A stretch of DNA of 64,000 nt from Prochlorococcus marinus str. MIT 9312 (GTDB lineage: Bacteria; Cyanobacteriota; Cyanobacteriia; PCC-6307; Cyanobiaceae), in the NCBI RefSeq assembly GCF_000012645.1, contig NC_007577.1:1240001-1304000 (forward strand). Direction: 5' to 3'. Positions 9,763 to 29,496 of this stretch are shown here, in pieces (positions within the stretch are counted from its first letter, which is position 1; the number at the start of each line of letters is the position of its first letter). Below the pieces are notes generated by a model. It did not search any database and was not told where the DNA came from. It saw only the letters and a list, made by a program, of their open reading frames with translations. The translations under genes and the position numbers were made by a program.

Positions 9763-11001
9763 CTATAAATCTTCAATATCTATAAATTTCATTCCGGAAT
9801 TCATAGCAGCCAACATATCAGATTTACTATCTCCCACTAAAACAGAACTCTTTAAATCAATATTTCTCAAAAAAGTTTGCTGAAAGATCATTCCTGGATT
9901 AGGTTTGCGACAAAAACAATCTTCTTTAAGAATGGATATCTCCCCCTGAAAACCTTTATGCGGATGATGCGGGCAATAAGAAATTTCGTCTATTTTTAAA
10001 CCCAAATCTAATAACCTTACAATTAATAAACTATTAATATCATATAAAGTTTCTAAATTCAAAAGACCCATAGAAATTTGTGGCTGATTAGTGATAACTA
10101 TGCATAAATCAAAATTTTTTCGTAAATTAATAATCTTTGAAATTTTATCTTTTTTTATTTGAATATCATTTGGATCAAGAATATAATTACCTTTCGTGCA
10201 TTTTATTAAAGTATTATCCCTATCAAGAAATAAGCATTTTTGTTTAAACTTATAATTTTTTTCTTTTATTTGATTATTTTTATCATCTTCAATTACTTTT
10301 TTTAACCTCTCTGGAGTACCAATATCTTTAATATATTCAGAAGTATTATAAGAATATATTCTCTTAAACAATTTAAAAAATTCATAAGCTAAATTTCTAA
10401 ATACTGTTTTATTTTTAATATTTGAATCTGATTTTATAAGATCAAGAATTTCTGTATTAAATAAAGAAATTCCGGCATTACCTAAAAATCCCCTAAAACT
10501 ATTATTTTTTTCTTGATTCTTAAATTTAAAATCGGATATTTGAGTACCATTTGTGGCCCTAATTAAGTCTGAATCTTCTGGATGAGATGTAATGTGGGTT
10601 ATCAAACTAAACTGGCTATCAAGTCTTTCATGAAAATCAATAAATCTTTGAAGATCTACATCAAAAACAATATCCCCAAGTACAAACAATACATCTTTTG
10701 AATTAATTTGATTTCTTATTTCCCATAATGCTCCGCATTCACCTAACGGTTCTTTTTCTATATAAGAAGTTATCTCCAAATCAAGTTGGTTTTCAATTTT
10801 TATTATTTCATTATCAAATAATTCACTTTTGTATCCTCTTAAAAGAAATAGCTTTTTAATACCGCATAAAGCAATTTGCTCAGCAATTTTATAAATAACT
10901 GTTTTACCGTTTATTTCAAGTAGTCCCTTTGGTTTACCATAAGAAATAGATTCGATTCTCGTTCCTTTCCCCCCAATAGAGGTTACCGCTGTAATATCCA
11001 T
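9763..11001 (-). CDS. Bifunctional heptose-1-phosphate guanylyltransferase (HddC-like) and heptose-1,7-bisphosphate phosphatase (GmhB-like)
   Basis: The first 235 residues are a nucleotidyltransferase with an N-terminal GGKGTR, KPKGLLEI and a VLGDIVFDVD metal site. The rest is a HAD phosphatase of the GmhB type: FLDRDNTL, VITNQP, a zinc loop (CPHHPHKG with CFCRKPNPGM) and VGDSKSD. In other bacteria HddC and GmhB are separate, so this is a fusion joining the last two steps of GDP-D-glycero-D-manno-heptose synthesis. The ATG at 11001 is preferred over an in-frame GTG at 11016 because it leaves 4 bp after the hddA stop. Nucleotide specificity (GDP rather than ADP) is inferred from the partner hddA. 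Confidence 0.82.
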   Translation of the reverse strand: MDITAVTSIGGKGTRIESISYGKPKGLLEINGKTVIYKIAEQIALCGIKKLFLLRGYKSELFDNEIIKIENQLDLEITSYIEKEPLGECGALWEIRNQINSKDVLFVLGDIVFDVDLQRFIDFHERLDSQFSLITHITSHPEDSDLIRATNGTQISDFKFKNQEKNNSFRGFLGNAGISLFNTEILDLIKSDSNIKNKTVFRNLAYEFFKLFKRIYSYNTSEYIKDIGTPERLKKVIEDDKNNQIKEKNYKFKQKCLFLDRDNTLIKCTKGNYILDPNDIQIKKDKISKIINLRKNFDLCIVITNQPQISMGLLNLETLYDINSLLIVRLLDLGLKIDEISYCPHHPHKGFQGEISILKEDCFCRKPNPGMIFQQTFLRNIDLKSSVLVGDSKSDMLAAMNSGMKFIDIEDL

Positions 11002-11005
11002 TATT

Positions 11006-11989
11006 TTAAACCACACAAGCTGAAATACCTTCTTTGCTCAATTCAACTTTTAAAGCTTTAATATCTTTATTTGATAAAAAAGATAACGCCTCATTAATAT
11101 CTACCTTTGAAGATAATAAAAAATAACCTCCTGATCCAGCACCAATTAGTCTTATCCAATTATTTGGGATTTGATTAATAATATTAAATTGATTTTCTAA
11201 TTCAAGATCCATAACATTACTCATTTTTCTTTTTATTTCCCAAGATTCTTTTATTGAATGATTCAAAAGATCATAAAGCTCATTTATACTCTTATTTGTT
11301 TTTAAAAAATTTTCGCAAATAGATCTTATATCTTTTAATGATTCTTTTGCTTTATTTGAGTTTTTAAAATTATGTAAAACTTTATCTGCAGATCTTGTTC
11401 TTAAAGAGGGAATAAGTATTAATTCATCAGAAACCAACTTAATTGCTTCTATATGATTTTTAGAAAGATTTAAAATTTCAACATGACCTTTTGGCTTATA
11501 TAGCAAAGCATTGATACCTCCCAAAGAAGAAATATATTGATCTTGCCGCCCTATTGGTTTACCAAGAATATTTATTTCTATTTCTGAACAAATATGTGCT
11601 AATTCCTTATTTGCAATATTTAAATTGAAGGCTTTATTTAATGCGGCTAAAAAAGATATACAAAAAGAAGAGGAGCCTCCAAGTCCTCCACCTCCCGAAG
11701 CAAATCCATAGGAATTCATCTCAATAAGATTATTTATTTTAAGATATCTTAGAGATTCCCTTATTAGAGGATGAGCTATTTCATCAATTTCCGAATATGT
11801 TTCTCTAGAAGAATAGTTAAGCATGCCAATTTTACTATTTTTATCCTTTTTATTAATAACTGTGTAAGAGTATTTAGCTAAACTAAATCCGATAGAGTTT
11901 CCAAAGCATTCATCTTCTACAAACCAATCTAAATCACTTCCACCTCCAAGTAAAGATATCCTATATGGGCATTTTCCAATAAATATCAT
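11006..11989 (-). CDS. hddA: D-glycero-alpha-D-manno-heptose 7-phosphate kinase (GHMP family)
   Basis: A GHMP kinase of 327 residues. It opens with PYRISLLGGGSDLDWF, the family's N-terminal substrate loop. It has the ATP-binding GGGGLGGSSSFCISF near residue 100, QDQYISSLGG near 155 and a C-terminal IGAGSGGYFLL. It phosphorylates heptose 7-phosphate at C1. The gene overlaps gmhA by 4 bp (ATGA) and precedes the hddC-gmhB fusion, which fits a single operon for GDP-heptose. The GGGSD motif and the neighbours make this more likely than fucose or galactose kinase. Confidence 0.87.
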   Translation of the reverse strand: MIFIGKCPYRISLLGGGSDLDWFVEDECFGNSIGFSLAKYSYTVINKKDKNSKIGMLNYSSRETYSEIDEIAHPLIRESLRYLKINNLIEMNSYGFASGGGGLGGSSSFCISFLAALNKAFNLNIANKELAHICSEIEINILGKPIGRQDQYISSLGGINALLYKPKGHVEILNLSKNHIEAIKLVSDELILIPSLRTRSADKVLHNFKNSNKAKESLKDIRSICENFLKTNKSINELYDLLNHSIKESWEIKRKMSNVMDLELENQFNIINQIPNNWIRLIGAGSGGYFLLSSKVDINEALSFLSNKDIKALKVELSKEGISACVV

Positions 11990-12606
11990 GAAACAATATC
12001 CTCAATAACTCTTTTATCGTATTTATTAGAAATCAAAGATTTCTCATCTTTTTCAAATTTATTACAAAAATTTTGTTTTATATAATGGAAGACTATTAAT
12101 TGAACATCTTCAGATATTTCCATATCATTTATATTTATATGAATAGGGATATCTACTAATTGTTTTATTCTTCCACCATTATATCCAACTATCCCAACTT
12201 GTTTTATTCCTAATTTTTTGGCTCTTTGTGCACATTTAACTAGATTAATTGAATTACCACTTCCTGAAAAATAAACTATTAAATCGCCTTTAAGAAATTT
12301 CACATCTACCATTGTTGAGTATACATCCGCATAATCAATATCATTTGATGCTGCTGTCAGGTAACAACTATTATCAGAGGCGCAAAAAATATTTAATCTT
12401 AAACCTAGCATCATAAAAGTTTTGGTAAAATCTCCAGCGATATGACTTGCGTTAGCAGCACTTCCTCCATTACCAATCAAATGAATTGAGAAATTGGTAT
12501 CAATTCTTTTCTTAATTTCATAATAAAGTTCATTTATTTTACTTTCTTCAAGATTTTCTAAAGCCTCTTTAAGCCTTGAAATGTAGCTAATAAATTTACT
12601 TTCCAT
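11986..12606 (-). CDS. gmhA: Phosphoheptose isomerase
   Basis: A SIS-domain protein of 206 residues with LIGNGGSAANASHIAGDFTK near residue 45, ASNDIDYADVYS near 103 and VYFSGSGNS near 124. It matches GmhA, which isomerises sedoheptulose 7-phosphate to D-glycero-D-manno-heptose 7-phosphate, the first step of heptose synthesis. The ATG at 12606 is used rather than an in-frame TTG at 12615; it begins 2 bp after the stop of the upstream hypothetical gene. It is followed by hddA with a 4-bp overlap. A second, fused SIS domain occurs at 23248-24156 but belongs to another cluster. Confidence 0.88.
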   Translation of the reverse strand: MESKFISYISRLKEALENLEESKINELYYEIKKRIDTNFSIHLIGNGGSAANASHIAGDFTKTFMMLGLRLNIFCASDNSCYLTAASNDIDYADVYSTMVDVKFLKGDLIVYFSGSGNSINLVKCAQRAKKLGIKQVGIVGYNGGRIKQLVDIPIHININDMEISEDVQLIVFHYIKQNFCNKFEKDEKSLISNKYDKRVIEDIVS

Positions 12607-12608
12607 TT

Positions 12609-13013
12609 TTAACAACCAAAATTATTTACGTAAGTTAAACCTATTTTGTTCAATTTGAGATTATAGTTTATTAACTTAACCACTTTTTTAAAAGAATCAT
12701 ATTCAAAATATCGAAATTTCTTTAAGTTAAAGTTCTTATGTATTTCTTGATATATTTTTAGTAAAAAATCTAACTTATTTATGTGTTGCTTTTGAATTAT
12801 GAATAATTTAATTTTGTTAATTTGAAATAAAAACTTTTTGTTTAATTTATTAAAATTTCTTTTTTGAAAATTTACAGAATTACATCCAATCTCTAAAGCA
12901 AAAGAAATTAAGATTTTTTCGATATTTAATGAATTAAAAAAATAAATACAACTATCATTAAATAAATAAATATAAACATCTTTCCCGAATGGCTTAAATC
13001 TCAATATTCCCAT
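12609..13013 (-). CDS. Hypothetical protein at the head of the heptose operon
   Basis: I do not recognise this 134-residue protein. It is rich in Lys, Asn, Phe and Ile, with no signal peptide or clear membrane segment. A central part (IGCNSVNFQKRNFNKLNKKF) and a C-terminal IGLTYVNNFGC are the only distinct segments. It ends 2 bp before gmhA on the same strand, which supports real translation and co-expression with the heptose genes. It could be a diverged surface-glycan protein or the remnant of a larger one. Composition is like the surrounding island and no frameshift is apparent. Confidence 0.5.
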   Translation of the reverse strand: MGILRFKPFGKDVYIYLFNDSCIYFFNSLNIEKILISFALEIGCNSVNFQKRNFNKLNKKFLFQINKIKLFIIQKQHINKLDFLLKIYQEIHKNFNLKKFRYFEYDSFKKVVKLINYNLKLNKIGLTYVNNFGC

Positions 13014-14740: not shown

Positions 14741-15289
14741 GATTATTAAAAATATCAAAAATAAAAATCAAATATAATTATGTTTTATATATTTCGTCTA
14801 ATATTTCATAATCTTTAATAGTAAATTCCAATCCATTTTTTTGATCTCTCTAAGTTGAACCCCAAGTACTTTTTCTTGGTTGATTAAGAATTTCTGAAGA
14901 TTAGACTGTATTTATATCTTTTTTTAGAATTTCACTGCATCCCATCCAGTTTCAATTGAATTATCTATTAATTTTTTGCTATTTCTATAGAACAATTATG
15001 ACTTATTTAAATTTCTGCAATTATTTAAATATATTTATCTGAGCCCATTTGATAAATTTTTTTTATTTCCATTGAAAATTATTATTTAATTTCACACTTT
15101 AACTTTTTGTATTAATTACAAATAAAAATGAACAATAATGTTTCAAAGTATTTTGATAACTTACCTAAAAAAATATTCTCAAAATAGATCATATACAAAG
15201 AAACGTAACTATTGTTATTTGCACTAAATTACATACTATTAACAAAAATTAGTTTATGTTAGAATATCGATATTTGAAAATTAAGGTTA
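14741..15289. other. Intergenic region containing a dead neuB fragment
   Basis: The 549 bp between two rightward genes have no open gene. The left half (14780-15072) is an antisense NeuB pseudogene. The right half is AT-rich and should carry the promoter of the NeuB-cupin gene at 15290; no clear promoter boxes were identified. Confidence 0.7.
14780..15072 (-). pseudogene. neuB pseudogene fragment (N-acetylneuraminate synthase family)
   Basis: Read on the minus strand from the ATG at 15072, one frame continues for about 97 codons and matches residues 1-95 of the NeuB-like protein at 22379-23248. The same frame shows KYI*IIAEI, then SHNCSIEIAKKLID, GWDAVKF, KDINTV, EILNQPRKSTWGST and GLEFTIKDYEILDE. 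Five in-frame stops interrupt it. They replace Tyr, Gly and Gln codons of the intact gene, and no frameshift is needed. The remaining two thirds of the gene are gone. It is a decayed copy lying antisense to its neighbours. Confidence 0.85.
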
Positions 15290-16855
15290 ATGATATCCAA
15301 AAGGATAGATTTCAATAATGAAATTAATCATAAAATTAGGATCATATTTGAAATAGCAAATAACCATCAAGGCAGTGTGGATCACTTTAAAAATATACTT
15401 GATGATATATTTTCTGCCAGCAAAACATTTGCCGATAAGTTTGAGTTTTTAATTAAATTTCAATTTAGAGATTTACCAACTTTTATAGATGAAAGCATAG
15501 ACCCCTCTCAAAATAAACATATTTCTAGATTTAAAGAAACTGCTCTTTTAGATGAACAATGGCTTCAAATTTTAAATATGGTAAGAGATAAAGGTTTTAA
15601 AACAATTGTTACACCATTTGATGAGGCTTCAGTTAATAAAGCTGAAAGATTTGGGATCGAAGAATATAAAATTGCTAGTTGCTCTTGCACCGAATGGAGT
15701 TTGTTGAGAGAAGTGGCAAACCAGAATAAACCTGTCACAATTTCTACTGGTGGAAGAAATCTAAAAGAAGTGGATGATATCTATTCATATTTTGCTCATA
15801 GAATACCTTATAAATTTACTATTATGCATTGTTGCGGAATCTATCCAGCACCAATAAAAGATTTAAACTTAAATACAATTAATATATTTAAGGAAAGATA
15901 TCCTTTAGCAAAGATTGGATACTCAGGTCATGAAGATCCTGATAATCATAGTATTTCCTCCTTGGCAATAGCTCTTGGAGCTGTTTCTATTGAGAGGCAT
16001 ATAGGTAAAGAAGACACTGAAAAAGATATTAATATTAATACTTACAGTGTTAGCAGCTCTTCTATTTATAAATGGCTAAAAGTACTTGATGAAACTTTGA
16101 CCTCATTAGGCAAAGCTAAGGACTATTCATATAAAAATCAAGTTGAATATAAATCTTTAAAAACTCTCCAAAGGGGTGTATTTTTGAAAAATGAAGTTAA
16201 AATTGGCGATAAGATTAATCTTAGTGATTGTAGTTTTAAATTCCCTATACAAGAAAATCAAATTTCAGCTTCTGAGATTGCATCAATTGATAATTGTTTC
16301 ATAGCTAATCAAAATCTAATATCAGGAGCAAGACTTACTTATGATAAAACGCAAATTCAAATATCCAAATCAATAAGTCTGAAGGAATATGTTCATAAAA
16401 TAAGAGGTATCATTAATCAATATGGTGAATACGTTCCAGATGATGTTGAGATAGAGGTATCTCATCATTATGGAATTGAAAAATTGAATAAATATGGTTG
16501 TTGCCTTATAAATATAATTAACCGGAGCTACTGTAAAAAGTTAATTATCATGACTGAAGGTCAAAATCATCCAACTCAATTTCATGATGTAAAAGAGGAA
16601 ACATTTCGAGTCCTGCATGGTGAACTAGAGCTTATTCTTGATGGTCAAAAGAAAATTATCAAATGTGGAGAAGAAGCTTTAGTAAGATCTGGAGTAAAGC
16701 ATTCTTTTAGAGCTATTACTGATTGTATTATTGAAGAACTCTCTACTACCAGTATTGCGGATGATTCAATTTATGAAGACACTAAAATTAATGATTTGCC
16801 AAGAGGTAAAAGAAAAACTTTAGTTAATCTTCACTTTGATCATTTTGACGAATGA
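15290..16855 (+). CDS. NeuB-family nonulosonate synthase with SAF and C-terminal cupin domains
   Basis: Three domains are seen in 521 residues. Residues about 15-280 form the NeuB TIM barrel: IIFEIANNHQGS, EYKIASCS, STGGRN, MHCCGIYPAP, GYSGHED and IERHIGKE, the last two supplying metal-binding His. Residues about 285-345 are an SAF (antifreeze-like) domain starting LQRGVFLKNEV. Residues about 400-500 are a cupin (FHDVKEETFRVLHGELEL and SGVKHSFRA). NeuB enzymes condense phosphoenolpyruvate with an amino sugar or similar aldose to give a nonulosonic acid. The cupin may isomerise or bind the sugar. The next gene, a NeuA-HAD fusion, begins 1 bp after the stop. Confidence 0.85.
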   Translation: MISKRIDFNNEINHKIRIIFEIANNHQGSVDHFKNILDDIFSASKTFADKFEFLIKFQFRDLPTFIDESIDPSQNKHISRFKETALLDEQWLQILNMVRDKGFKTIVTPFDEASVNKAERFGIEEYKIASCSCTEWSLLREVANQNKPVTISTGGRNLKEVDDIYSYFAHRIPYKFTIMHCCGIYPAPIKDLNLNTINIFKERYPLAKIGYSGHEDPDNHSISSLAIALGAVSIERHIGKEDTEKDININTYSVSSSSIYKWLKVLDETLTSLGKAKDYSYKNQVEYKSLKTLQRGVFLKNEVKIGDKINLSDCSFKFPIQENQISASEIASIDNCFIANQNLISGARLTYDKTQIQISKSISLKEYVHKIRGIINQYGEYVPDDVEIEVSHHYGIEKLNKYGCCLINIINRSYCKKLIIMTEGQNHPTQFHDVKEETFRVLHGELELILDGQKKIIKCGEEALVRSGVKHSFRAITDCIIEELSTTSIADDSIYEDTKINDLPRGKRKTLVNLHFDHFDE

Positions 16856-16856
16856 G

Positions 16857-17900
16857 ATGTCAAAAGTTCTCGGATTTATACCCTGCAGATCAGGTTCAAA
16901 AAGAATAAAAAATAAAAATCTTCTTACATTTAATTCGAAGTCTCTCATACAAAATGTTTATGATTTTGCCGAATTATCTAAAAGTATAGATGACATTGTA
17001 GTATCAACAGATTCTTCAGATTATTTAAATAGTTTTAGCAAAAAGGGTAAATTTATAGATATTGGGTTAAGATCAAAGAAAAATTCAACTGATAAATCAA
17101 CTGATATTGATGTTTTAAAAGAAGTTATTCAAAAATTAAAAATAAAAGGATTTGATTATAAATATGTTATTCACTTAAGACCAACTTATCCAGCAATTTC
17201 CGAAAAAAATATTGATGATGCATATAAATTACTTTTATTAAATGAAAGAGCAACTAGCTTAAAAAGTGTTGAAAAACTAGATTTGTTTTATCAGAAATGT
17301 TTAATAGAAGATGATGAAGATTCGTCAAGATTAATTGGACTTGATAATGATATTTTTAATATTTCATCATCAATGCCCTCTCAAAAATGCAAAAATATTT
17401 ATGCCCAAACGGCAGCTCTGGATATTTATAAAATCGAAAATATATTATCTGGAAATTTATGGGGAAGTTATTGTTTAAAATATGAATTTGGTAATGTGAA
17501 TGCTGATATAGATGAATATTTTGATTTGCCTCATGCATATAGTGCACTAGATCAATTAGATGTTTTTAATAATAAAAAGAAGGGAAAACAATATGAAATA
17601 TGTTTTGATATTGATGGACTTCTTTTTTCAAGAACTTCAGATGGAAATTACTCTAATGCAATTCCCAATAAAGGAGCTATTGAAATTTTATCTAAATTAA
17701 AAAATAAAGGATTTGTAATTATTTTACAAACCGCAAGAGGTACTAAAACTGGAAAGAATTGGTTTGAAGTAACAAAAAAACAACTAGAAAATAATAATGT
17801 ACCTTATGACAAATTAATTTTCAAAAAACCTGGCTCAGATTTTTATGTAGATGACCGTTTTATATCTTTAAGGAGATTAAAAAAGATTTTCAATATTTAA
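16857..17900 (+). CDS. CMP-nonulosonate cytidylyltransferase (NeuA-like) fused to a HAD phosphatase
   Basis: The first ~230 residues are an acylneuraminate cytidylyltransferase: FIPCRSGSKRIKNKN at the start, VVSTDSSDY and HLRPTYP. The last ~105 residues are the same short HAD module as at 5452-5835: CFDIDGLLFSRT, LQTARGTKTG and FYVDDRF. The fusion would remove phosphate from the NeuB product (a 9-phosphate type intermediate) and attach CMP. The ATG at 16857, 1 bp after the upstream stop, is preferred over an in-frame TTG at 16836. With the preceding gene it forms a two-gene module for an activated nonulosonate. Confidence 0.83.
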   Translation: MSKVLGFIPCRSGSKRIKNKNLLTFNSKSLIQNVYDFAELSKSIDDIVVSTDSSDYLNSFSKKGKFIDIGLRSKKNSTDKSTDIDVLKEVIQKLKIKGFDYKYVIHLRPTYPAISEKNIDDAYKLLLLNERATSLKSVEKLDLFYQKCLIEDDEDSSRLIGLDNDIFNISSSMPSQKCKNIYAQTAALDIYKIENILSGNLWGSYCLKYEFGNVNADIDEYFDLPHAYSALDQLDVFNNKKKGKQYEICFDIDGLLFSRTSDGNYSNAIPNKGAIEILSKLKNKGFVIILQTARGTKTGKNWFEVTKKQLENNNVPYDKLIFKKPGSDFYVDDRFISLRRLKKIFNI

Positions 17901-22378: not shown

Positions 22379-23248
22379 ATGAATATTGTTAATTTCAATC
22401 AACTTGGTTTTGATAAATATATTTACTTGATAGCTGAAATAGGAATTAACCATAATGGTTCAATTGATTTAGCTAAAAAGTTGATAGATCAAGCTGTAGA
22501 TTGTGGATGTGATGCAGTAAAGTTCCAAAAGAGAGATATTAACACAGTTTATTCGAAAGAGATTTTAGATCAAGCCAGAGAAAGCCCATGGGGAAATACT
22601 CAAAGAGAACAAAAAGAGGGTCTTGAATTTTCTTTAACACAATATGAAGAGCTAGATAAATATTGCAAAGGGAAGAATATTGATTGGTTTGCCTCTTCTT
22701 GGGACAAAAAAAGTCAATTAGAAATGAGAAGGTTTAAATTTAAATTCAATAAAATAGCCTCTGCTATGGCTACAAACTTAGATTTTGTTGAATTTGTAGC
22801 ATCTGAAGGTACTCCTACTTTTGCATCAACTGGGATGACAGAAATTGAAGATATTGAAAAAATAGTGGAAATTTTTAAGAGGCATTCATGTGAATTGATG
22901 CTTATGCATACTGTAAGCACATACCCCTCCTTAGAATCTGATTTAAATTTAAAATGTATCAACATGCTTAAGAATAAATTTAAGCTCCCTGTTGGATATA
23001 GTGGTCACGAAGTTTCAGTTTCTCCATCTGTAATAGCAGCAACATTAGGAGCATGCGCTATAGAGAGACACATAACACTAGATAGGTCAATGTATGGTAG
23101 TGATCAATCAGCATCATTACAAGAAGAAGGCTTTAGACAATTAGTCTCTATTTGTAGAAAAATACCTATTCTTCTTGGAGACGGAGAAAAGAAGATAATA
23201 GAAGCAGAAAAAACAATTGCCAATAAATTAAGATATTGGAAAAAATAA
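22379..23248 (+). CDS. neuB: NeuB-family nonulosonate synthase (short form, no SAF domain)
   Basis: The 289-residue barrel has YLIAEIGINHNGSIDLAKK at the start, CDAVKFQKRD, KIASAMATN, TFASTGM, MHTVSTYPS, GYSGHE and ERHITLD; the last two bring the metal-binding His. YGSDQSASL stands where many family members have a PDH triplet. It lacks the usual C-terminal SAF domain (typical length about 340-350), so it may be a specialised or domain-lost form. It should condense phosphoenolpyruvate with an aldose. It opens an eight-gene run; the next gene shares one base with its stop (TAATG). The pseudogene at 14780-15072 is closely similar. Confidence 0.85.
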   Translation: MNIVNFNQLGFDKYIYLIAEIGINHNGSIDLAKKLIDQAVDCGCDAVKFQKRDINTVYSKEILDQARESPWGNTQREQKEGLEFSLTQYEELDKYCKGKNIDWFASSWDKKSQLEMRRFKFKFNKIASAMATNLDFVEFVASEGTPTFASTGMTEIEDIEKIVEIFKRHSCELMLMHTVSTYPSLESDLNLKCINMLKNKFKLPVGYSGHEVSVSPSVIAATLGACAIERHITLDRSMYGSDQSASLQEEGFRQLVSICRKIPILLGDGEKKIIEAEKTIANKLRYWKK

Positions 23249-24156
23249 TGAAAACTTACGTTTTTGATATTGATGGAACTATTTGTACAAATACATATGG
23301 TGAATATAAAAAAGCTGAACCTTTTTTGGAAAATATTTTAAAAGTAAACTCTTTATATGAAAATGGTAATTATATTAAATATTTCACAGCAAGAGGTTCT
23401 GGCACAGGTATAGATTGGCATGATCTTACAAAAAAACAACTTGATACATGGGGAGCAAAATATCACGAATTAATCTTAGGGAAACCAGAAGGGGACTTTT
23501 ACATAGATGATAAAGGTAAAAATGCCCTTACATACAATTGGGCGAACACAAGTATCCCATTAAATGATAAGAACTATGGAAATGTTATAAAACAAGAAAT
23601 CATCAAAAGTATTAATACACTAGAAAATTTTTTAGAAAATCATTCTTCTATCAGTTCTATAGAAAAAGTCTCTAAATTATGTCAAGAGTGTCTTAAAAAA
23701 GGAGGTAAAATTATTTTTGCAGGTAATGGAGGTAGTTTCGCAGATGCTCAGCATTTAAGTGCAGAATTTATTTCTAAATTATTAACAGATAGAAATCCAC
23801 TGCCTGCAATAGCATTAGGTACCAATTCAAGTTCTACTACAGCTATTGGCAACGATTACGGGTTTGAAAATATTTTTTCCCGGGAATTAGATGCTCTTGG
23901 AAATTCTAATGATTTATTTTTAGCTTTTTCAACAAGTGGAAATAGTCAAAATATTATTAATGCGTTAAAAAAATGTGAAGAAAATTCTATTAATTACTTT
24001 ATCTTTACTGGCAAAGATGGTGGATTATGTTCTGAATTATTTTCTAATATTATAAAGGTCCCTTCTGATAATACAGCTATTATTCAACAACTACATATTA
24101 CTCTTGGTCATATAATTTGCAAATTAGCAGAACAAAATTTTTTGAATCATGAATAA
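23248..24156 (+). CDS. HAD phosphatase fused to a GmhA-like SIS isomerase
   Basis: Residues 1-105 are the short HAD module (VFDIDGTIC, FTARGSGTG, FYIDDKG), the same type as at 5452 and 16857. Residues 130-302 are a SIS domain like phosphoheptose isomerase: FAGNGGSFADAQHLSAEF, GNDYGFENIF and AFSTSGNSQNI. The fusion could isomerise a ketose phosphate to an aldose phosphate and dephosphorylate an intermediate, supplying the substrate or finishing the product of NeuB next to it. The ATG at 23248, overlapping the upstream stop, is preferred to an in-frame TTG at 23236. A GmhA-HAD fusion of this order is unusual to me. Confidence 0.8.
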   Translation: MKTYVFDIDGTICTNTYGEYKKAEPFLENILKVNSLYENGNYIKYFTARGSGTGIDWHDLTKKQLDTWGAKYHELILGKPEGDFYIDDKGKNALTYNWANTSIPLNDKNYGNVIKQEIIKSINTLENFLENHSSISSIEKVSKLCQECLKKGGKIIFAGNGGSFADAQHLSAEFISKLLTDRNPLPAIALGTNSSSTTAIGNDYGFENIFSRELDALGNSNDLFLAFSTSGNSQNIINALKKCEENSINYFIFTGKDGGLCSELFSNIIKVPSDNTAIIQQLHITLGHIICKLAEQNFLNHE

Positions 24157-24964
24157 TAATTTTGGAGTGATGCAAGGAAGATTACTTCCCAAGTTCAAAG
24201 ATCAATATCAATCACATCCTTTAGGATATTGGCAAAAAGAATACGATATTGCATCTAAATTATTTTTGAAAAATATTGAGTTTATTTTTGATTTATATCT
24301 TTATAATGAGAATCCAATTTATTCAAATTTAGAAGAAGTAATAAATATTCAAAAAAAGACTGGAATAAAGACAAGCAGTATATGTGCAGATTTCTTTATG
24401 AATGCGCCAATCCAAAGTGCTAATAGAGAAGAAAAGATTATCTTTCAAAAAATTCTTTCAAGATTAATTATTAATTTATCAAAATTAGGGGGTTCAGATA
24501 TAGTTATTCCATTTGTGGATAATTCCAAATTAAAAACTAAAATAGATAGAGAAAAAGTTATTGAATTTTTAAATTCGTTTGAAGAAATTTGTTCTGATAA
24601 TAATATTAACCTTTCTCTAGAAACTGATTTAGAACCAGAAAATTTTAGAGATTTTATAGATAAATTTGATAATGATTTTATTACTATTAATTATGATTCA
24701 GGTAATAGTGCTTCATTAGGATATTCAATTTTTGAAGAATTAAATATATTAGGCAATAAAATTACAAATATTCATATAAAAGATAGATTACTAAATGGAT
24801 TTTCTGTCGAATTAGGGAAAGGTAATGCTAATCTAAAGTTCTTAAAGAAATTCATAATTGAGAATAATTATAATGGTGTTATTACTTTCCAAGCATATAG
24901 AGACACAGAAGGTATTTCAATTTTCAAAAAGCAATATCAATATTTCTTAGACTTAAAAATATGA
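24149..24964 (+). CDS. Sugar phosphate isomerase/epimerase-like TIM-barrel protein
   Basis: A 271-residue protein of the xylose isomerase-like/AP endonuclease 2 family. GVMQGRLLPKF opens it, NIEFIFDLYLYNE supplies an early acidic site, NLSLETDLEP near residue 153 and NYDSGNSASLGY near 185 give metal ligands, and NIHIKDRL near 210 is the conserved HxKD-type motif. Such enzymes isomerise or epimerise small sugars or keto acids. It overlaps the HAD-SIS gene by 8 bp and NeuA by 4 bp, so it belongs to the same pathway, perhaps making the aldose used by NeuB. Confidence 0.75.
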   Translation: MNNNFGVMQGRLLPKFKDQYQSHPLGYWQKEYDIASKLFLKNIEFIFDLYLYNENPIYSNLEEVINIQKKTGIKTSSICADFFMNAPIQSANREEKIIFQKILSRLIINLSKLGGSDIVIPFVDNSKLKTKIDREKVIEFLNSFEEICSDNNINLSLETDLEPENFRDFIDKFDNDFITINYDSGNSASLGYSIFEELNILGNKITNIHIKDRLLNGFSVELGKGNANLKFLKKFIIENNYNGVITFQAYRDTEGISIFKKQYQYFLDLKI

Positions 24965-25644
24965 AGTTTGTTGCAATTCTTTTGGCCAGAGGAGGATCCA
25001 AAGGGATTCCAAAGAAAAATCTTTTAAAAATAAATAAAATTCCTTTAATTAGTTTTACTATAAGACAGTGTTTTAGTGCAGGTATAGAAGAAATTTATAC
25101 AAGTTCTGATGATGATGAAATCTTATCTGTTGCGAGAGATGAAGGTTCTAAATTAATTAAAAGGCCCTTAGATATTGCCCATGATTGTTCTACATCAGAA
25201 TCGGCTTGGTTACATGCTATTGATAATATTGACAATTTAGATGATAGCAATGACTGGATATTTGCCCCTCAATTAACATCTCCAATTAGAGAAACATTTG
25301 ACATTAAGAATGGACTAGAAATTGCAAGCAGTAATAAATATGATTCAATATTTTCGGCTGTAGAATTAAATGACTTTTTAATCTGGAAAAATGAAAATAA
25401 TAAATTGGAGCCAATAAATTATGACTTTCAAAAACGACTAAGAAGGCAAGATATTAAGGTAAATAATTATCTAGAAAATGGCTCTTTTTATTTATTTAAA
25501 CCTTGTGGCATAAAAAAATTTAATAATAGGCTTTATGGAAGAATAGGGATATGTAAAATGGACAAATTAAAAATGTTCCAAATAGATCACTATAGTGATA
25601 TTTTTATTGTAGAAAAAATCTTGCAGAAACTCAATATCAAATAA
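24961..25644 (+). CDS. neuA: CMP-nonulosonate synthase (acylneuraminate cytidylyltransferase)
   Basis: The 227-residue enzyme has the CTP-binding LLARGGSKGIPKKN at residues 7-20, KRPLDIAHD near 63, and an APQLTSPIR segment near 92, typical of NeuA/KdsB-type transferases that join CMP to a ulosonic acid. No phosphatase domain is attached, unlike the NeuA-HAD at 16857-17900. Its ATGA overlap with the upstream gene and the adjoining NeuB strongly support CMP activation of the cluster's sugar acid. Which acid it is cannot be told from sequence. Confidence 0.87.
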   Translation: MKFVAILLARGGSKGIPKKNLLKINKIPLISFTIRQCFSAGIEEIYTSSDDDEILSVARDEGSKLIKRPLDIAHDCSTSESAWLHAIDNIDNLDDSNDWIFAPQLTSPIRETFDIKNGLEIASSNKYDSIFSAVELNDFLIWKNENNKLEPINYDFQKRLRRQDIKVNNYLENGSFYLFKPCGIKKFNNRLYGRIGICKMDKLKMFQIDHYSDIFIVEKILQKLNIK

Positions 25645-26403
25645 ATGAGTATGTTTTCTGTAAAAAATAAACGTGTATTAGTCGTGGGGGCCTCTAGGGG
25701 GATTGGTCTTGAAATATCAATCAAATTGAAAGAGGGAAAAGCTGATATTCTTGGAATTGCTAGGTCTGATATAAATGCTGATTTTAATTATCTAAGAGTT
25801 GATATCTCAAACAATAAAGATATCTTATATTTAAATAAATATATCGAGCAAAATAACTTATTTTTTGATGGAATTGTCGTAAATTCAGCAATAAGTCAAT
25901 CTCCCAAAACATTTGATAATAAAGAAAACACTTCTAATAAGCAGAAATTTACACAAAACCCTAGGAAGTTTGAATTAATTAATAATATAAATCTAATTTC
26001 TGTTTATGAACTTCTATATACTGTAAGTCCTTATATTTCGAAAGATGCTTCAATTATTTTTATCTCTAGTATTGGTTCTGAATTGGGATTCCCAGGGAAT
26101 CCTGGATACCAAACATCAAAAGCAGGAATAAACGCCTTAGTGAGAGCATTAGCTGTAGATTTATCTAGAGATAGAATAAGAGTGAACCATTTAAATTTAG
26201 GATATATAAATGCACCAATGAGTAAGGATTCATACAATGATAAAAAAATGAATAAAGAAAGAAGTGAAAGAACAATCCTAAAAAGGTGGGGCTCTATAGA
26301 AGATGTAATAGGACCAGTAATTTTTTTATTATCTAATGAAAGTAGCTATATCACTGGAACAGGTATAAATGTTGATGGTGGGTGGTTATCAAAAGGATTA
26401 TGA
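25645..26403 (+). CDS. Short-chain dehydrogenase/reductase (first of three)
   Basis: A classical SDR of 252 residues: VVGASRGIGLE (nucleotide loop, with Arg suggesting NADP(H)), VVNSAIS, a catalytic Ser in FISSIGS, YQTSKAG (Tyr and Lys) and a C-terminal ITGTGINVDGGW. It starts immediately after the NeuA stop (TAAATG) and overlaps the next SDR by 4 bp. It probably oxidises or reduces a carbonyl on the cluster's sugar. The extra loop around residues 85-105 is longer than in FabG-like proteins. Confidence 0.85.
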   Translation: MSMFSVKNKRVLVVGASRGIGLEISIKLKEGKADILGIARSDINADFNYLRVDISNNKDILYLNKYIEQNNLFFDGIVVNSAISQSPKTFDNKENTSNKQKFTQNPRKFELINNINLISVYELLYTVSPYISKDASIIFISSIGSELGFPGNPGYQTSKAGINALVRALAVDLSRDRIRVNHLNLGYINAPMSKDSYNDKKMNKERSERTILKRWGSIEDVIGPVIFLLSNESSYITGTGINVDGGWLSKGL

Positions 26404-27161
26404 ATTTAGATTTAAAAGATAAATTTATAATAATAGCTGGAGGACTTGGGGGTATTGGTCTAGAAACTGTAAAAGACTTAATTTCTGAAGGTGCAGAAAT
26501 TTCAATATTAACTCAAAATGAATCAAAATATATTGAATATTCAAAATACTTTGATGTACATTTATTGGATTACGAATCAGAAGATTCTATTAAAGCCACC
26601 TTTGAATTTTTAATGAAAAACAGAAAGCCATCAGGGTTTATATCTTTTGTTGGTACTGGTAGATCGTCTAATAATGCTTTTCAAAATAAAGATGATGTTA
26701 TCAAGATGTGGCAAGTTAACTATTTTGCCAACAGATTATTGGCAAAAATTTTTGTAGAGTCTACACGAAAAATTTTTGGAGATCCAAAAAATTCGGATTA
26801 CTTTATTACTCTAACTGCATCAATAGCATCTAACCTTTTTATTAATTGCCCAACTGAATATTCAGTTTCAAAAATTGCATTAGTGAGATTATGCAAAGAT
26901 TTATCTTGGAAATTAGCCCCTTACTATAGAGTAAATTGCATTTCTCCAGGTAATATTTTCTTTAAAGGTGGTACGTGGGACAGAATACAAAAAGAAGGTA
27001 AAATTGATATTGATGAACTATTAAAAACAAAAGTTCCATCCAGAAGATTTGGAACCCCATCTGATATATCTAAATTTGCAGTATTTTTATCATCTCCCTT
27101 AGCATCATTTATAAATGGTTCATGTATTAAAATTGATGGTGGCCAATCAACTTATACTTAG
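26400..27161 (+). CDS. Short-chain dehydrogenase/reductase (second of three)
   Basis: A 253-residue SDR with IIAGGLGGIGLET at the nucleotide site, FVGTGRSSNN, a TASIAS Ser site, YSVSKIALV (Tyr and Lys) and RVNCISPGNI. The C-terminus FINGSCIKIDGGQS is standard for the family. The ATG at 26400 overlaps the previous stop (ATGA); an earlier in-frame GTG at 26382 is less likely. The loop lacks the basic residue of the first SDR, so cofactor preference may differ. Three consecutive SDRs suggest several redox changes on one sugar or keto acid. Confidence 0.85.
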   Translation: MNLDLKDKFIIIAGGLGGIGLETVKDLISEGAEISILTQNESKYIEYSKYFDVHLLDYESEDSIKATFEFLMKNRKPSGFISFVGTGRSSNNAFQNKDDVIKMWQVNYFANRLLAKIFVESTRKIFGDPKNSDYFITLTASIASNLFINCPTEYSVSKIALVRLCKDLSWKLAPYYRVNCISPGNIFFKGGTWDRIQKEGKIDIDELLKTKVPSRRFGTPSDISKFAVFLSSPLASFINGSCIKIDGGQSTYT

Positions 27162-27164
27162 AAA

Positions 27165-27980
27165 TTGAAAAATTTTGATTTAAAAGAAGGTTACTATATT
27201 GTTACCGGCGGTCTTGGATTACTGGGGAAACAACATTGTGAAGCTATAAGTAAATTCGGTGGTACCCCAATAATAATTGACATAAACCACTTAGAATTTC
27301 AAGATTTTTATAGGTATTTATTAAAAAAATATAACAAAAAGGCAGTTTTATTTGAGAATGATATTACGAATGAAAAATCGGTTAAAGAAGTTGTTGATAA
27401 ATGCAAAGCCTTAGATTATAAGATACATGGCTTGATTAATAATGCCGCTAGAGATCCCAAAGTTACTGAAGGTGGGCTTAAAAATAAAAACAGATTGGAA
27501 ATATTTCCTATAGAAGAGTGGAACAAAGATTTATCTGTAGGTTTAACAGGCGCATATCTATGTACTAAATATTTTGGATCTTATATGAATAAAAATTATG
27601 GAGGAGCAATTGTAAATATTTCTTCCGACTTAGGCTTGATAGCACCTAATCAAGAACTTTATAAAGAAGATACACTTAATTCTGAAAATCAGCCTGTAAA
27701 ACCAGTTACATATTCAGTAGTTAAAAGTGGTCTAATTGGCTTAACAAGATATACTGCTACCTATTGGCCCAAAAAAGTAAGGTGCAATTGTTTATGTCCA
27801 GGGGGAGTTTACAATCACCAAAATGAGTCCTTCTTGAATAAGGTTTCTAATTTAATTCCAATGGGAAGACTTGCTAATAAAGATGAATATATGCCCGCTA
27901 TTGTATTCATGTTAAGCGAAGCTTCTTCATATATGAATGGCGCCATTTTATCAATTGACGGTGGGCGATCTACCTGGTAA
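27165..27980 (+). CDS. Short-chain dehydrogenase/reductase (third of three)
   Basis: A 271-residue SDR with YYIVTGGLGLLGKQH at the nucleotide site, a following acidic IIDINHLE that suggests NAD(H), LINNAARDPK, NISSDLGL, YSVVKSGLIGL (Tyr and Lys), and MNGAILSIDGGRS at the end. It begins with TTG at 27165, 3 bp after the previous stop. The insert NQELYKEDTLN before the active Tyr is also seen in SDRs annotated in surface-polysaccharide clusters near NeuA/NeuB genes. The substrate is inferred only from context. Confidence 0.85.
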   Translation: MKNFDLKEGYYIVTGGLGLLGKQHCEAISKFGGTPIIIDINHLEFQDFYRYLLKKYNKKAVLFENDITNEKSVKEVVDKCKALDYKIHGLINNAARDPKVTEGGLKNKNRLEIFPIEEWNKDLSVGLTGAYLCTKYFGSYMNKNYGGAIVNISSDLGLIAPNQELYKEDTLNSENQPVKPVTYSVVKSGLIGLTRYTATYWPKKVRCNCLCPGGVYNHQNESFLNKVSNLIPMGRLANKDEYMPAIVFMLSEASSYMNGAILSIDGGRSTW

Positions 27981-27987
27981 TTTAACT

Positions 27988-29496
27988 ATGAATTTTAGAA
28001 GAACAAAACAAAAAATAAATGATTTTAAAGGATTTATTATCGTAAAAATAATCATAAATAATTTTCTTTTTCAAGATTCTATAAAATCATTTTTACTAAT
28101 TAGGAAAAAATCACACACAAAATATCTTCTTGAAGAAAATAATATTTTTGATAACAATCAAAAGATCGGATTATTTCCATATAGTGTTTGGGATTGTCTG
28201 GCGATACATAATATATTTTGTAAATACTATAAAAATGCTATTTGTATTCATCCTGATCAAAATATAGAAAGAAAAGAGATATCTAACTTAAGAATCAAAT
28301 TAATTAAAAATTTCAGATCTAGAAAATCAATTAAAAAAAGAAATGTTAGTTTTTTTATTAAAGATAGCCAAAAACTTTTTGAAGAAATTAATCTTTTTTT
28401 AAAAAAAGAACTTGGGGAATTTAGTCATATAGCAACCTATGGACTTTTAGATAATTTAATCAAGGATTGTAATTTATCAATTTTTTTAAACGGTTTTATC
28501 TATGATAAAAAATTGTTATTTTCCTATTTAGCAAAAATCCTCAAGCTTACAAAAATAATATGTGACCCATTTAAAAAGATATTTATTGCAGAGACAGCGT
28601 ATCTAGAATGTTCTTTTTTAAGGGCCTATAGCTTCGCTCATAATATTGAACTTTTTTGTTTGCATCCAAATGGTACTTTCAGAAAATTAGATCCTAAAGA
28701 ATCACCTTCAGAAAGTTACATTTCTGACAAGAAAAATTTGATTTTCGGAGGAAATTGCAAAATAAGTTATGAGGAACTTAAAAATCTTGGAGTTAATTAT
28801 TTTAGAAAGAGATTAAAAGGTGAAGGTTCAGATTCTGACTCTAGATATGCATTTAGAAATTCAGCCTCTAAACCCAATAAACAAATAAAGAAAGTGCTAT
28901 TTTTACACTGCATAAGAGATGCAAACAATATTAACTCAATTGAATCAAATATCTTTAAAACTTATATAGAGTGGACTAATTACACCTTGTCGAAAATTAA
29001 AAATGATCAAGAAAATTGGTGGATCAAAATACATCCTATGTCTAGTTTTTGGAAAGATGATATTGATATAATTAGAGAATTATTTAAGCAGAATAATATT
29101 GACAACTCTATTTCAGAAAATTGTCCTAGTACAAAAGAAATATTAGAAAAAGGTATGCCGATTTTTACATGTAATGGGACCATAGCACTTGAATCACTTG
29201 CATTTGGCAACTACTGTATTGCCTCGGGAAATAGAATCGCTAATTCTTTAATTAAGAAAATTGATGATTTAAATAGTTATGATAATTATTTATTAATGCC
29301 AGTTAATAAATGCCTCAAAAATCTGAAGGCTTCAAAAGAAAAATCAATATTAGCGAAATCTTTGTTAATGGATACAAAAAGCAGATGCGATCTTGAGCAT
29401 TTTTTTCCATATAAATATATTCAATCCAACGATTCTTTTCTCCAAAAATTAAAAATAATATTTACTATTGGGAACAAAAAGCACAAATACATTTAA
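27988..29496 (+). CDS. Putative capsule/surface polysaccharide glycosyltransferase (GT-B-like)
   Basis: This 502-residue protein ends the eight-gene run. No membrane segment is clear. The C-terminal part has WWIKIHPMSSFW near residue 347 and FTCNGTIALESLAFGNYCIASGN near 395, a donor-site pattern like that of KpsC/KpsS and other capsule transferases that use CMP-Kdo or related donors. That would fit use of the CMP-sugar made by the upstream genes, but it is inference. The ATG at 27988 is preferred because the open frame's earlier part overlaps the third SDR. A distant relative lies at 13472-14740. Confidence 0.6.
   Translation: MNFRRTKQKINDFKGFIIVKIIINNFLFQDSIKSFLLIRKKSHTKYLLEENNIFDNNQKIGLFPYSVWDCLAIHNIFCKYYKNAICIHPDQNIERKEISNLRIKLIKNFRSRKSIKKRNVSFFIKDSQKLFEEINLFLKKELGEFSHIATYGLLDNLIKDCNLSIFLNGFIYDKKLLFSYLAKILKLTKIICDPFKKIFIAETAYLECSFLRAYSFAHNIELFCLHPNGTFRKLDPKESPSESYISDKKNLIFGGNCKISYEELKNLGVNYFRKRLKGEGSDSDSRYAFRNSASKPNKQIKKVLFLHCIRDANNINSIESNIFKTYIEWTNYTLSKIKNDQENWWIKIHPMSSFWKDDIDIIRELFKQNNIDNSISENCPSTKEILEKGMPIFTCNGTIALESLAFGNYCIASGNRIANSLIKKIDDLNSYDNYLLMPVNKCLKNLKASKEKSILAKSLLMDTKSRCDLEHFFPYKYIQSNDSFLQKLKIIFTIGNKKHKYI

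Follow-up and report, generated by a model that had tools for sequence, protein, structure and literature searches.

An intact operon for a CMP-activated ulosonic acid in Prochlorococcus marinus MIT 9312, with a route proposed from its genes

The stretch analysed here (the window) comprises 64,000 nucleotides of the genome of Prochlorococcus marinus str. MIT 9312 (contig NC_007577.1, positions 1,240,001 to 1,304,000). It carries an eight-gene operon (Table 1), which is real and intact and serves a cytidine monophosphate (CMP)-activated ulosonic acid; the route is inferred from the genes. The acid is most likely an unusual acidic surface sugar, made by a phosphorylated route unlike the usual bacterial routes to sialic acids.

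The operon and its gene products

Table 1. Genes of the operon and other NeuB-related features (positions within the window)
Feature	Position	Strand	Matches and remarks
Short NeuB-family synthase, 289 aa, without SAF domain	22379..23248	+	PF03102, 222 bits
HAD-SIS fusion: EcbF-type HAD phosphatase (N-terminal third) and GmhA-like SIS isomerase (C-terminal two thirds)	23248..24156	+	SIS_2 match; 9iqw match
Xylose-isomerase-like TIM barrel	24149..24964	+	PF01261 (AP_endonuc_2), 53.6 bits
NeuA-like CMP-ulosonate cytidylyltransferase	24961..25644	+	PF02348 (CTP_transf_3), 46.8 bits
SDR1	25645..26403	+	PF13561/PF00106; YQTSK
SDR2	26382..27161	+	PF13561
SDR3, PtmA-like	27165..27980	+	NF050062 PtmA, 103.8 bits, under cut-off 350; YSVVK
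Orphan protein, possible glycosyltransferase	27937..29496	+	No Pfam or NCBIfam match
Second intact NeuB-family protein with C-terminal cupin, separate set	15290..16855	+	PF03102, 139.9 bits; Cupin_2
CMP-transferase/EcbF-type HAD fusion, adjoins second NeuB	16836..17900	+	CTP_transf_3; EcbF-BcbF 38.3 bits, under cut-off 162
Short-NeuB remnant, broken, with stops	14784-15072	-	Pieces 55-58% identical; in gap before second NeuB
Diverged truncated NeuB N-terminus, 134-aa reading frame	12609-13013	-	31% identity; adjoins SIS gene
GDP-heptose-like set: SIS, sugar kinase, nucleotidyltransferase/phosphatase fusion	9763-12615	-	Reading of the open reading frames

The first-pass annotation had described an overlapping, head-to-tail run of eight genes. 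All eight open reading frames (ORFs) are present at that place and on that strand, intact and with small gaps or overlaps, and the domain labels given to the first seven products agree with Pfam, NCBIfam and PDB matches. In-frame ATG codons lie inside the listed ORFs of the HAD-SIS fusion (23248), SDR2 (26400) and the last gene (27988), and the listed starts (TTG 23236, GTG 26382 and ATG 27937, respectively) may be upstream of the true ones; the true start of the last gene is probably inside its ORF. Queries with the HAD-SIS protein begin at 23251, and the searches with the last protein begin at 27976. A promoter and terminator scan scored no better than shuffled sequence. The grouping is more than chance, because genes of these families are found together again in other phyla.

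The synthase exceeds the cut-off of the NeuB family (PF03102, 222 bits versus 22.1) but reaches neither equivalog cut-off, that of N-acetylneuraminate synthase NnaB (TIGR03569, 232.2 versus 399.65) or that of pseudaminate synthase PseI (TIGR03586, 176.9 versus 340.25). The reference NeuBs of two loci (numbered here with an L; L143 and L145) have a SAF match, whereas the window NeuB has none. In an unrooted tree of 83 rows, whose short rows are 28 randomly drawn plus chosen ones, it falls inside a 30-row short set (support 100/97), closest to three rows from L019, L020 and L027 (100/98). The references for LegI, for PseI and for two of the three Neu proteins sit in a separate 35-row set (98/92); the remaining Neu reference, that of E. 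coli, is long-branched and comes out among the short NeuBs, an unsure placement. The NeuB thus does not group with LegI or PseI references. "Short" was set by length (at most 325 aa), and five truncated NeuBs were dropped from the counts. Within the short family, all 93 rows have K51 and R52, and 91 have R67 and K79, at positions where 40 long NeuBs mostly carry other residues. From the alignment, these four are candidate phosphate-binding residues and would fit a phosphorylated aldose substrate. No match that could be labelled a NeuB acting on phosphorylated substrates came out of a profile search of the PDB. Another short NeuB group (L173, L174, L175, L177) has NeuA and a KdsC-type HAD nearby.

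The HAD part of the fusion matches PDB entry 9iqw, "Capsule biosynthesis protein" (E 3e-7), and the SIS part matches SIS_2 with 71 bits. All 13 PDB matches of the SIS part at E ≤ 1e-30 are phosphoheptose isomerases. Aligned with 2xbl, it keeps the His/Glu/Gln motifs aqH...aEf and iQ..H...GH, residues which we take to have a metal or catalytic role in GmhA. A genome-wide PF01380 search found only a 637-aa two-domain protein (probably GlmS), the operon SIS and the SIS at 11986-12615, which is 27% identical to the operon SIS.

The PDB matches of NeuA are CMP-N-acetylneuraminate (CMP-Neu5Ac) synthetases, or NeuA. Each of SDR1, SDR2 and SDR3 has its YxxxK in place. The barrel was modelled with a predicted local distance difference test score (pLDDT) of 95. 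Its nearest PDB folds are L-xylulose-5-phosphate 3-epimerase UlaE (3cqi; Z 27.5, root-mean-square deviation 2.6 over 260) and, in Foldseek, also the 3-keto-glucoside 4-epimerase YcjR; xylose isomerases reach Z of about 25. E158, D183, H209 and K211 are kept in 48 of 48 barrels, and position 248 is Q in 35 and E in 13. The E, D and H presumably form the metal site of xylose-isomerase-like barrels.

The last protein had been called GT-B-like and assigned the transfer of the sugar. It has no Pfam or NCBIfam match, a viral scan found no relative, and a single-sequence structure model (pLDDT 34) was not usable. Two proteins from 151 genomes of the same genus are 24-27% identical to it; one passes the CDP-glycerol glycerophosphotransferase family cut-off and the other falls short of it. 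These distant relatives hint weakly at a glycosyltransferase, and the earlier label is barely borne out.

The classical enzymes searched for do not accompany the set, in line with the first-pass annotation, which saw no UDP-GlcNAc epimerase, aminotransferase or acetyltransferase. In the whole genome the NeuC model found no match, and the best scores for PseB (161.3 versus 407.75) and PseC (234.3 versus 423.5) stay under their cut-offs. LegB and LegC did not turn up among the operon domains in a general domain scan, which included no models for them. A non-classical NeuB/NeuA ulosonate pathway is supported.

Neighbours of short NeuBs and the spread of related sets

A HAD of EcbF or KdsC type lies within 9 kb of 63 of 95 short NeuBs and of 9 of 45 long ones. 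For HAD or SIS the counts are 79 of 95 and 10 of 45 (p=3.5e-12). In a cyanobacterial subset (33 regions from 55 places) a HAD stands beside 8 of 8 short NeuBs and 0 of 24 long ones (p=9.5e-8), four of the eight (L173, L174, L175, L177) belonging to the other short group. All of these neighbour counts depend on cut-offs chosen by the authors and on hidden Markov models trained on short-NeuB loci. Among the ten long NeuBs with a HAD or SIS, four (L030, L038, L102, L106) exceed 400 bits on the short model and are, by that score, short-family members with a longer ORF; another five (L027, L033, L045, L050 and the second NeuB of the window) have a short NeuB in the same locus; and for the last, L154, the SIS is about 8 kb away.

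Fusions place SIS, HAD and NeuA in one pathway. HAD-SIS fusions occur in 11 short-NeuB cases besides the window, and in several loci the HAD is fused to the CMP-transferase (NeuA/KdsC or CMPb/KdsC). Of the 41 short-NeuB cases with a SIS, 24 have it at most 700 bp away from NeuB and on the strand of NeuB. The kinase HddA was found in none of the 41, which disfavours a role of the SIS in GDP-heptose synthesis, although the window has a GDP-heptose-like set of its own, with another SIS (Table 1). The KdsC-type HAD adjoining the short NeuB of L044 has as PDB matches Kdo-8-phosphate phosphatases (KdsC), 3ewi and the 3e81 set; 3e81 we take to be the KDN-9-phosphate phosphatase of Bacteroides thetaiotaomicron (KDN, deaminoneuraminic acid; Kdo, 3-deoxy-D-manno-octulosonic acid). 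Phosphorylation and dephosphorylation steps belong to the B. thetaiotaomicron, Prymnesium parvum and human routes, and many bacteria use no phosphorylated sugars, according to the accessible part of PMC6200933. Taken together, the HAD and SIS neighbours, the fusions, the KdsC-type match and those routes suggest an ulosonate phosphate as the most likely product of the short NeuB.

The barrel and SDR3 travel together. Among 76 short-NeuB genes, 33 have both, 4 and 3 have one alone, and 36 have neither. Of the 33 (L095 is counted twice), 17 have SDR2, 11 have a Gfo/Idh/MocA enzyme, none has both and 5 have neither, from which SDR2 and the Gfo/Idh enzyme would appear to do the same job. A barrel search independent of the NeuB anchor covered 200 genomes of the same genus, 67 of them at least 90% complete and little contaminated. 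Counting as short those NeuBs with at least 300 bits (13 genomes), 10 genomes have barrel and short NeuB, 1 the barrel only, 3 the NeuB only and 186 neither; no barrel was found in the 75 genomes whose NeuB matches all score lower. One of the short NeuBs (G157) has an in-frame stop. In L030 a barrel and a VOC domain share one ORF (labelled TIM/VOC). VOC genes and class-III aminotransferases near short NeuBs occur together in 10 cases, alone in 2 and 2, and neither in 62.

SDR1 and a NeuA-type CMP-transferase occur together in 7 cases, alone in 3 and 19, and in 47 neither is present (p=0.03). Related loci carry three kinds of aminotransferase, and the cut-off used for these missed at least one class-III enzyme (L056). 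The window may hold the hydroxyl version of a sugar that related loci aminate.

A scan of genome contigs found at least 80 short-NeuB loci in many phyla. Such sets occur in marine Prochlorococcus, SAR11, SAR86, SAR116, groundwater and gut metagenome-assembled genomes (MAGs), a Thermoplasmatales MAG and phages. In L043, a Rhodospirillaceae MAG, the order is KdsC, NeuB, barrel, NeuA, SDR1, SDR2, SDR3; nearly whole sets are also present in L041 (SAR116), L020 (same genus), L092 (SAR11) and L105 (Xenococcaceae). On plasmid NZ_CP029359 of Azospirillum thermophilum CFH 70021, a legionaminate cluster stands directly beside a short NeuB and a KdsC-type HAD protein. Beyond an IS21 element follow SDR3, SDR2, barrel and SDR1, with a CMP-transferase further on; a SIS was not found in this locus. 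The claim that no known pathway uses this set fits the characterised pathways known to us, but very similar sets exist elsewhere, as on this plasmid and in L043. No characterised member of these sets was found in the literature searched, and searches on nonulosonic acids in Prochlorococcus, on sialic acid in MIT9312 and on ten-carbon ulosonic acids gave nothing on the operon. Among the side observations, several SAR11 loci have a TylF-type methyltransferase beside NeuB, and six loci of Clostridia-type MAGs (L060, L072, L074, L079, L087, L099) carry a short NeuB, a KdsC-SIS fusion and a thiamine-diphosphate enzyme.

The phage counterparts are partial. In the Kyanoviridae record MH319754 the short NeuB is accompanied by an EcbF-type HAD, an aminotransferase and an SDR resembling PtmA; an ORF some kilobases away reads as psbA. 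For viruses, 82 loci were labelled: 80 out of at least 80 listed, plus L107 and L108, with near-copies included and L108 found via its HAD. Labels were EcbF in 33, KdsC in 2, barrel in 15, SDR3 in 19, SDR1 in 23, Gfo in 1 and SDR2 in 0. Among cellular short NeuBs (n = 76), EcbF is near 8 and KdsC near 39, whereas the viral loci have EcbF in 33 of 82 and KdsC in 2 of 82. The short-NeuB sets on viral contigs such as L218, L219, L239, L245, L248, L254 and L288 include a CMP-transferase, aminotransferase, VOC, barrel, SDRs and EcbF-type HAD; L254 and L248 also carry PhoH proteins. Searched against viral sequences, the HAD-SIS protein found two partial matches. The gene-order search proposed with the first-pass annotation thus found similar sets in the same genus, in SAR11 and in other phyla, and in phages only in part, SDR2 being absent from all 82 viral loci.

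The window also holds a second NeuB set. The second NeuB, its adjoining CMP-transferase/HAD fusion and the two minus-strand NeuB remnants (Table 1) had been missed. The second NeuB has a very long branch in the tree.

Proposed pathway and competing explanations

The direct findings are the gene content and homology, the position of NeuB in the tree, the co-occurrence of genes, the exchange between SDR2 and Gfo/Idh and the predicted fold of the barrel; from them we infer the following mechanism. The GmhA-like SIS would convert a ketose phosphate into an aldose phosphate, and the short NeuB would condense the latter with phosphoenolpyruvate to an ulosonate phosphate. The HAD domain would then remove the phosphate, and NeuA, judged by its family, would add CMP. 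The barrel, SDR2 and SDR3 would invert one carbon of the sugar or a precursor by oxidation, epimerisation and reduction, and SDR1 would reduce a keto group about where related loci have an aminotransferase. Finally the sugar would be placed on a surface polysaccharide, perhaps via the last protein. The product would be a CMP-activated, probably non-aminated 3-deoxy-2-ulosonic acid, and we consider this proposal about equally likely to be right or wrong.

The first-pass annotation had SIS and barrel together supply an aldose other than the usual N-acetylhexosamine. An aldose other than free N-acetylhexosamine is indeed likely, and the HAD and SIS point to phosphorylated intermediates, which that annotation had not mentioned. 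The barrel is more likely a keto-sugar epimerase in the oxidise-epimerise-reduce step than a supplier of the NeuB substrate, because it is paired with SDR3 and with SDR2 or Gfo/Idh. A supplying role is possible, because a NeuB of Serratia carries a barrel domain (PMC9000132, accessible part) and the xylose isomerase fold is nearly as close. As substrate of the SIS, sedoheptulose-7-phosphate is our first guess and fructose-6-phosphate the second, because of the PDB matches of the SIS, the absence of HddA from the SIS cases and the few SIS genes in the genome.

Several observations weigh against this pathway. The substrate of the SIS is unsure, since it scores under the curated GmhA cut-off (TIGR00441, 159.9 versus 209.45), and the modelled barrel fold does not separate an epimerase from an aldose-ketose isomerase. 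No HAD of either type lies within 9 kb of 32 of the 95 short NeuBs. Among the at least 80 loci listed, this holds for 15 of 15 SAR11 loci (L035, L055, L056, L070, L071, L076, L077, L082, L084, L085, L088, L091, L092, L094, L101), of which 11 have a SIS; a Pfam look at ten unlabelled NeuB neighbours in eight SAR11 loci found methyltransferases, SDRs and an aminotransferase, and no HAD. If the proposed route is true, SAR11 cells must use a phosphatase coded elsewhere. A similar gap in P. parvum was called unsurprising, sugar phosphatases being redundant (PMC6200933, in the part accessible). The SAR11 loci nevertheless lower the trust in a phosphorylated route and slightly raise that in plain KDN. 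A SIS without HAD occurs in L041, and a HAD without SIS in L139 and in L043 (a 6.7-kb contig). In the viral loci SDR2 is missing and Gfo occurs once although 15 have a barrel, so the three-gene cassette is not obligatory. L052 and L076 carry SDR1 and aminotransferases together, which leaves the hydroxyl-version idea loose.

The strongest competitor is ordinary CMP-KDN, with SIS or barrel supplying mannose-6-phosphate or mannose, NeuB making KDN or KDN-9-phosphate, and the SDR and barrel genes making an unrelated sugar of the same polysaccharide. We hold it to be rather unlikely, though with real precedents: enzymes of B. thetaiotaomicron and P. parvum make KDN-9-phosphate from mannose-6-phosphate and then dephosphorylate it (PMC6200933, accessible part), the NeuB of a Serratia that produces KDN includes a barrel domain of COG1082 (PMC9000132, likewise), and two cyanobacterial NeuBs of about 760 aa (L179, L180) are NeuB-SAF-barrel proteins, one with a CBS match. 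The SIS, however, is GmhA-like by its PDB matches, and in the same genus the barrel is tied to the short NeuB, which 10 of the 11 barrel-bearing genomes have, whereas none of the 75 with only lower-scoring NeuBs has the barrel, a tie which an unrelated sugar does not predict and which disfavours the barrel and SDRs as an unrelated sugar module.

A special case of the proposed pathway takes D-glycero-D-manno-heptose-7-phosphate, formed from sedoheptulose-7-phosphate, as the NeuB substrate, giving a ten-carbon 3-deoxy-dec-2-ulosonic acid. Sedoheptulose-7-phosphate is an intermediate of the Calvin cycle. The uniform phosphoheptose isomerase matches of the SIS (13 of 13), its closeness to NeuB in 24 of 41 cases and the missing HddA, by which the SIS would not serve GDP-heptose by that route, favour this version. 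Yet the SIS is under curated gmhA cut-offs, GmhA-like proteins may use other ketose phosphates, and a literature search with six spellings of the name retrieved no paper; we regard this version as unlikely. Were it true, the HAD, NeuA and redox-epimerase cassette would finish the acid, and variants of it would be found in many phyla and in phages of the ocean.

A disguised legionaminic or pseudaminic pathway with its early enzymes elsewhere in the genome is very improbable, for although SDR3 resembles PtmA, a legionaminate-cluster protein found with the oxidoreductase PtmF (PMC4481668, accessible part) or with Gfo/Idh (L145), LegI and PseI fall in another group than this NeuB, the whole genome yields no match to NeuC and only scores under the cut-offs for PseB and PseC, and A. 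thermophilum has a legionaminate cluster plus this set beside it.

As related sets occur in many bacteria and in ocean viruses, the sugar may be common. If the proposed pathway is true, abundant microbes of the ocean, and its phages too, encode a large and uncharted class of ulosonic acids, whose synthesis passes through phosphorylated intermediates and draws on exchangeable redox, isomerase and aminotransferase modules. The operon provides concrete enzymes for testing, and A. thermophilum CFH 70021 a named strain.

Comparison with characterised systems

The Kdo pathway runs through a SIS isomerase (KdsD), a phosphoenolpyruvate condensation (KdsA), a HAD phosphatase (KdsC) and a CMP-transferase (KdsB). 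The operon would follow the same order of reactions, but its synthase is of the NeuB family, its SIS GmhA-like and its HAD of EcbF type. In the YcjQRS-type interconversion of gulosides and glucosides, a Gfo/Idh enzyme, a xylose-isomerase-like barrel and a second dehydrogenase oxidise, epimerise and reduce the sugar. The operon barrel is 16% identical to YcjR; it is linked to NeuB and NeuA, and SDRs are used.

The remaining comparisons draw on the accessible parts of the papers cited. The CMP-KDN route via KDN-9-phosphate in B. thetaiotaomicron and P. parvum resembles the proposed pathway in having a NeuB-family synthase acting on an aldose phosphate, a phosphatase and a CMP-transferase; it starts from mannose-6-phosphate with no SIS, barrel or SDR described there, whereas the operon has the SIS and four more enzymes (PMC6200933). 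The capsule locus KL1/KL2 of Serratia marcescens makes KDN, and little Neu5Ac, with NeuA and a NeuB that carries a COG1082 barrel domain (PMC9000132). The cyanobacterial fusions L179 and L180 resemble this Serratia protein, whereas the operon barrel is separate and its NeuB without SAF. The legionaminate cluster with PtmA and PtmF shares with the operon the PtmA-like SDR3, and a Gfo/Idh enzyme is found both in sister loci and in the Rhizobium WL3 legionaminate cluster (L145; PMC4481668). In contrast to legionaminate synthesis, the operon is without dehydratase, LegC, NeuC and acetyltransferase, has a NeuB of a different group and adds the barrel. In the Acinetobacter Aci/8eAci modules, SDR genes beside the nonulosonate set are likewise proposed to decide the epimer; the Acinetobacter SDRs, however, would by that proposal follow a legionaminate set (PMC5595891).

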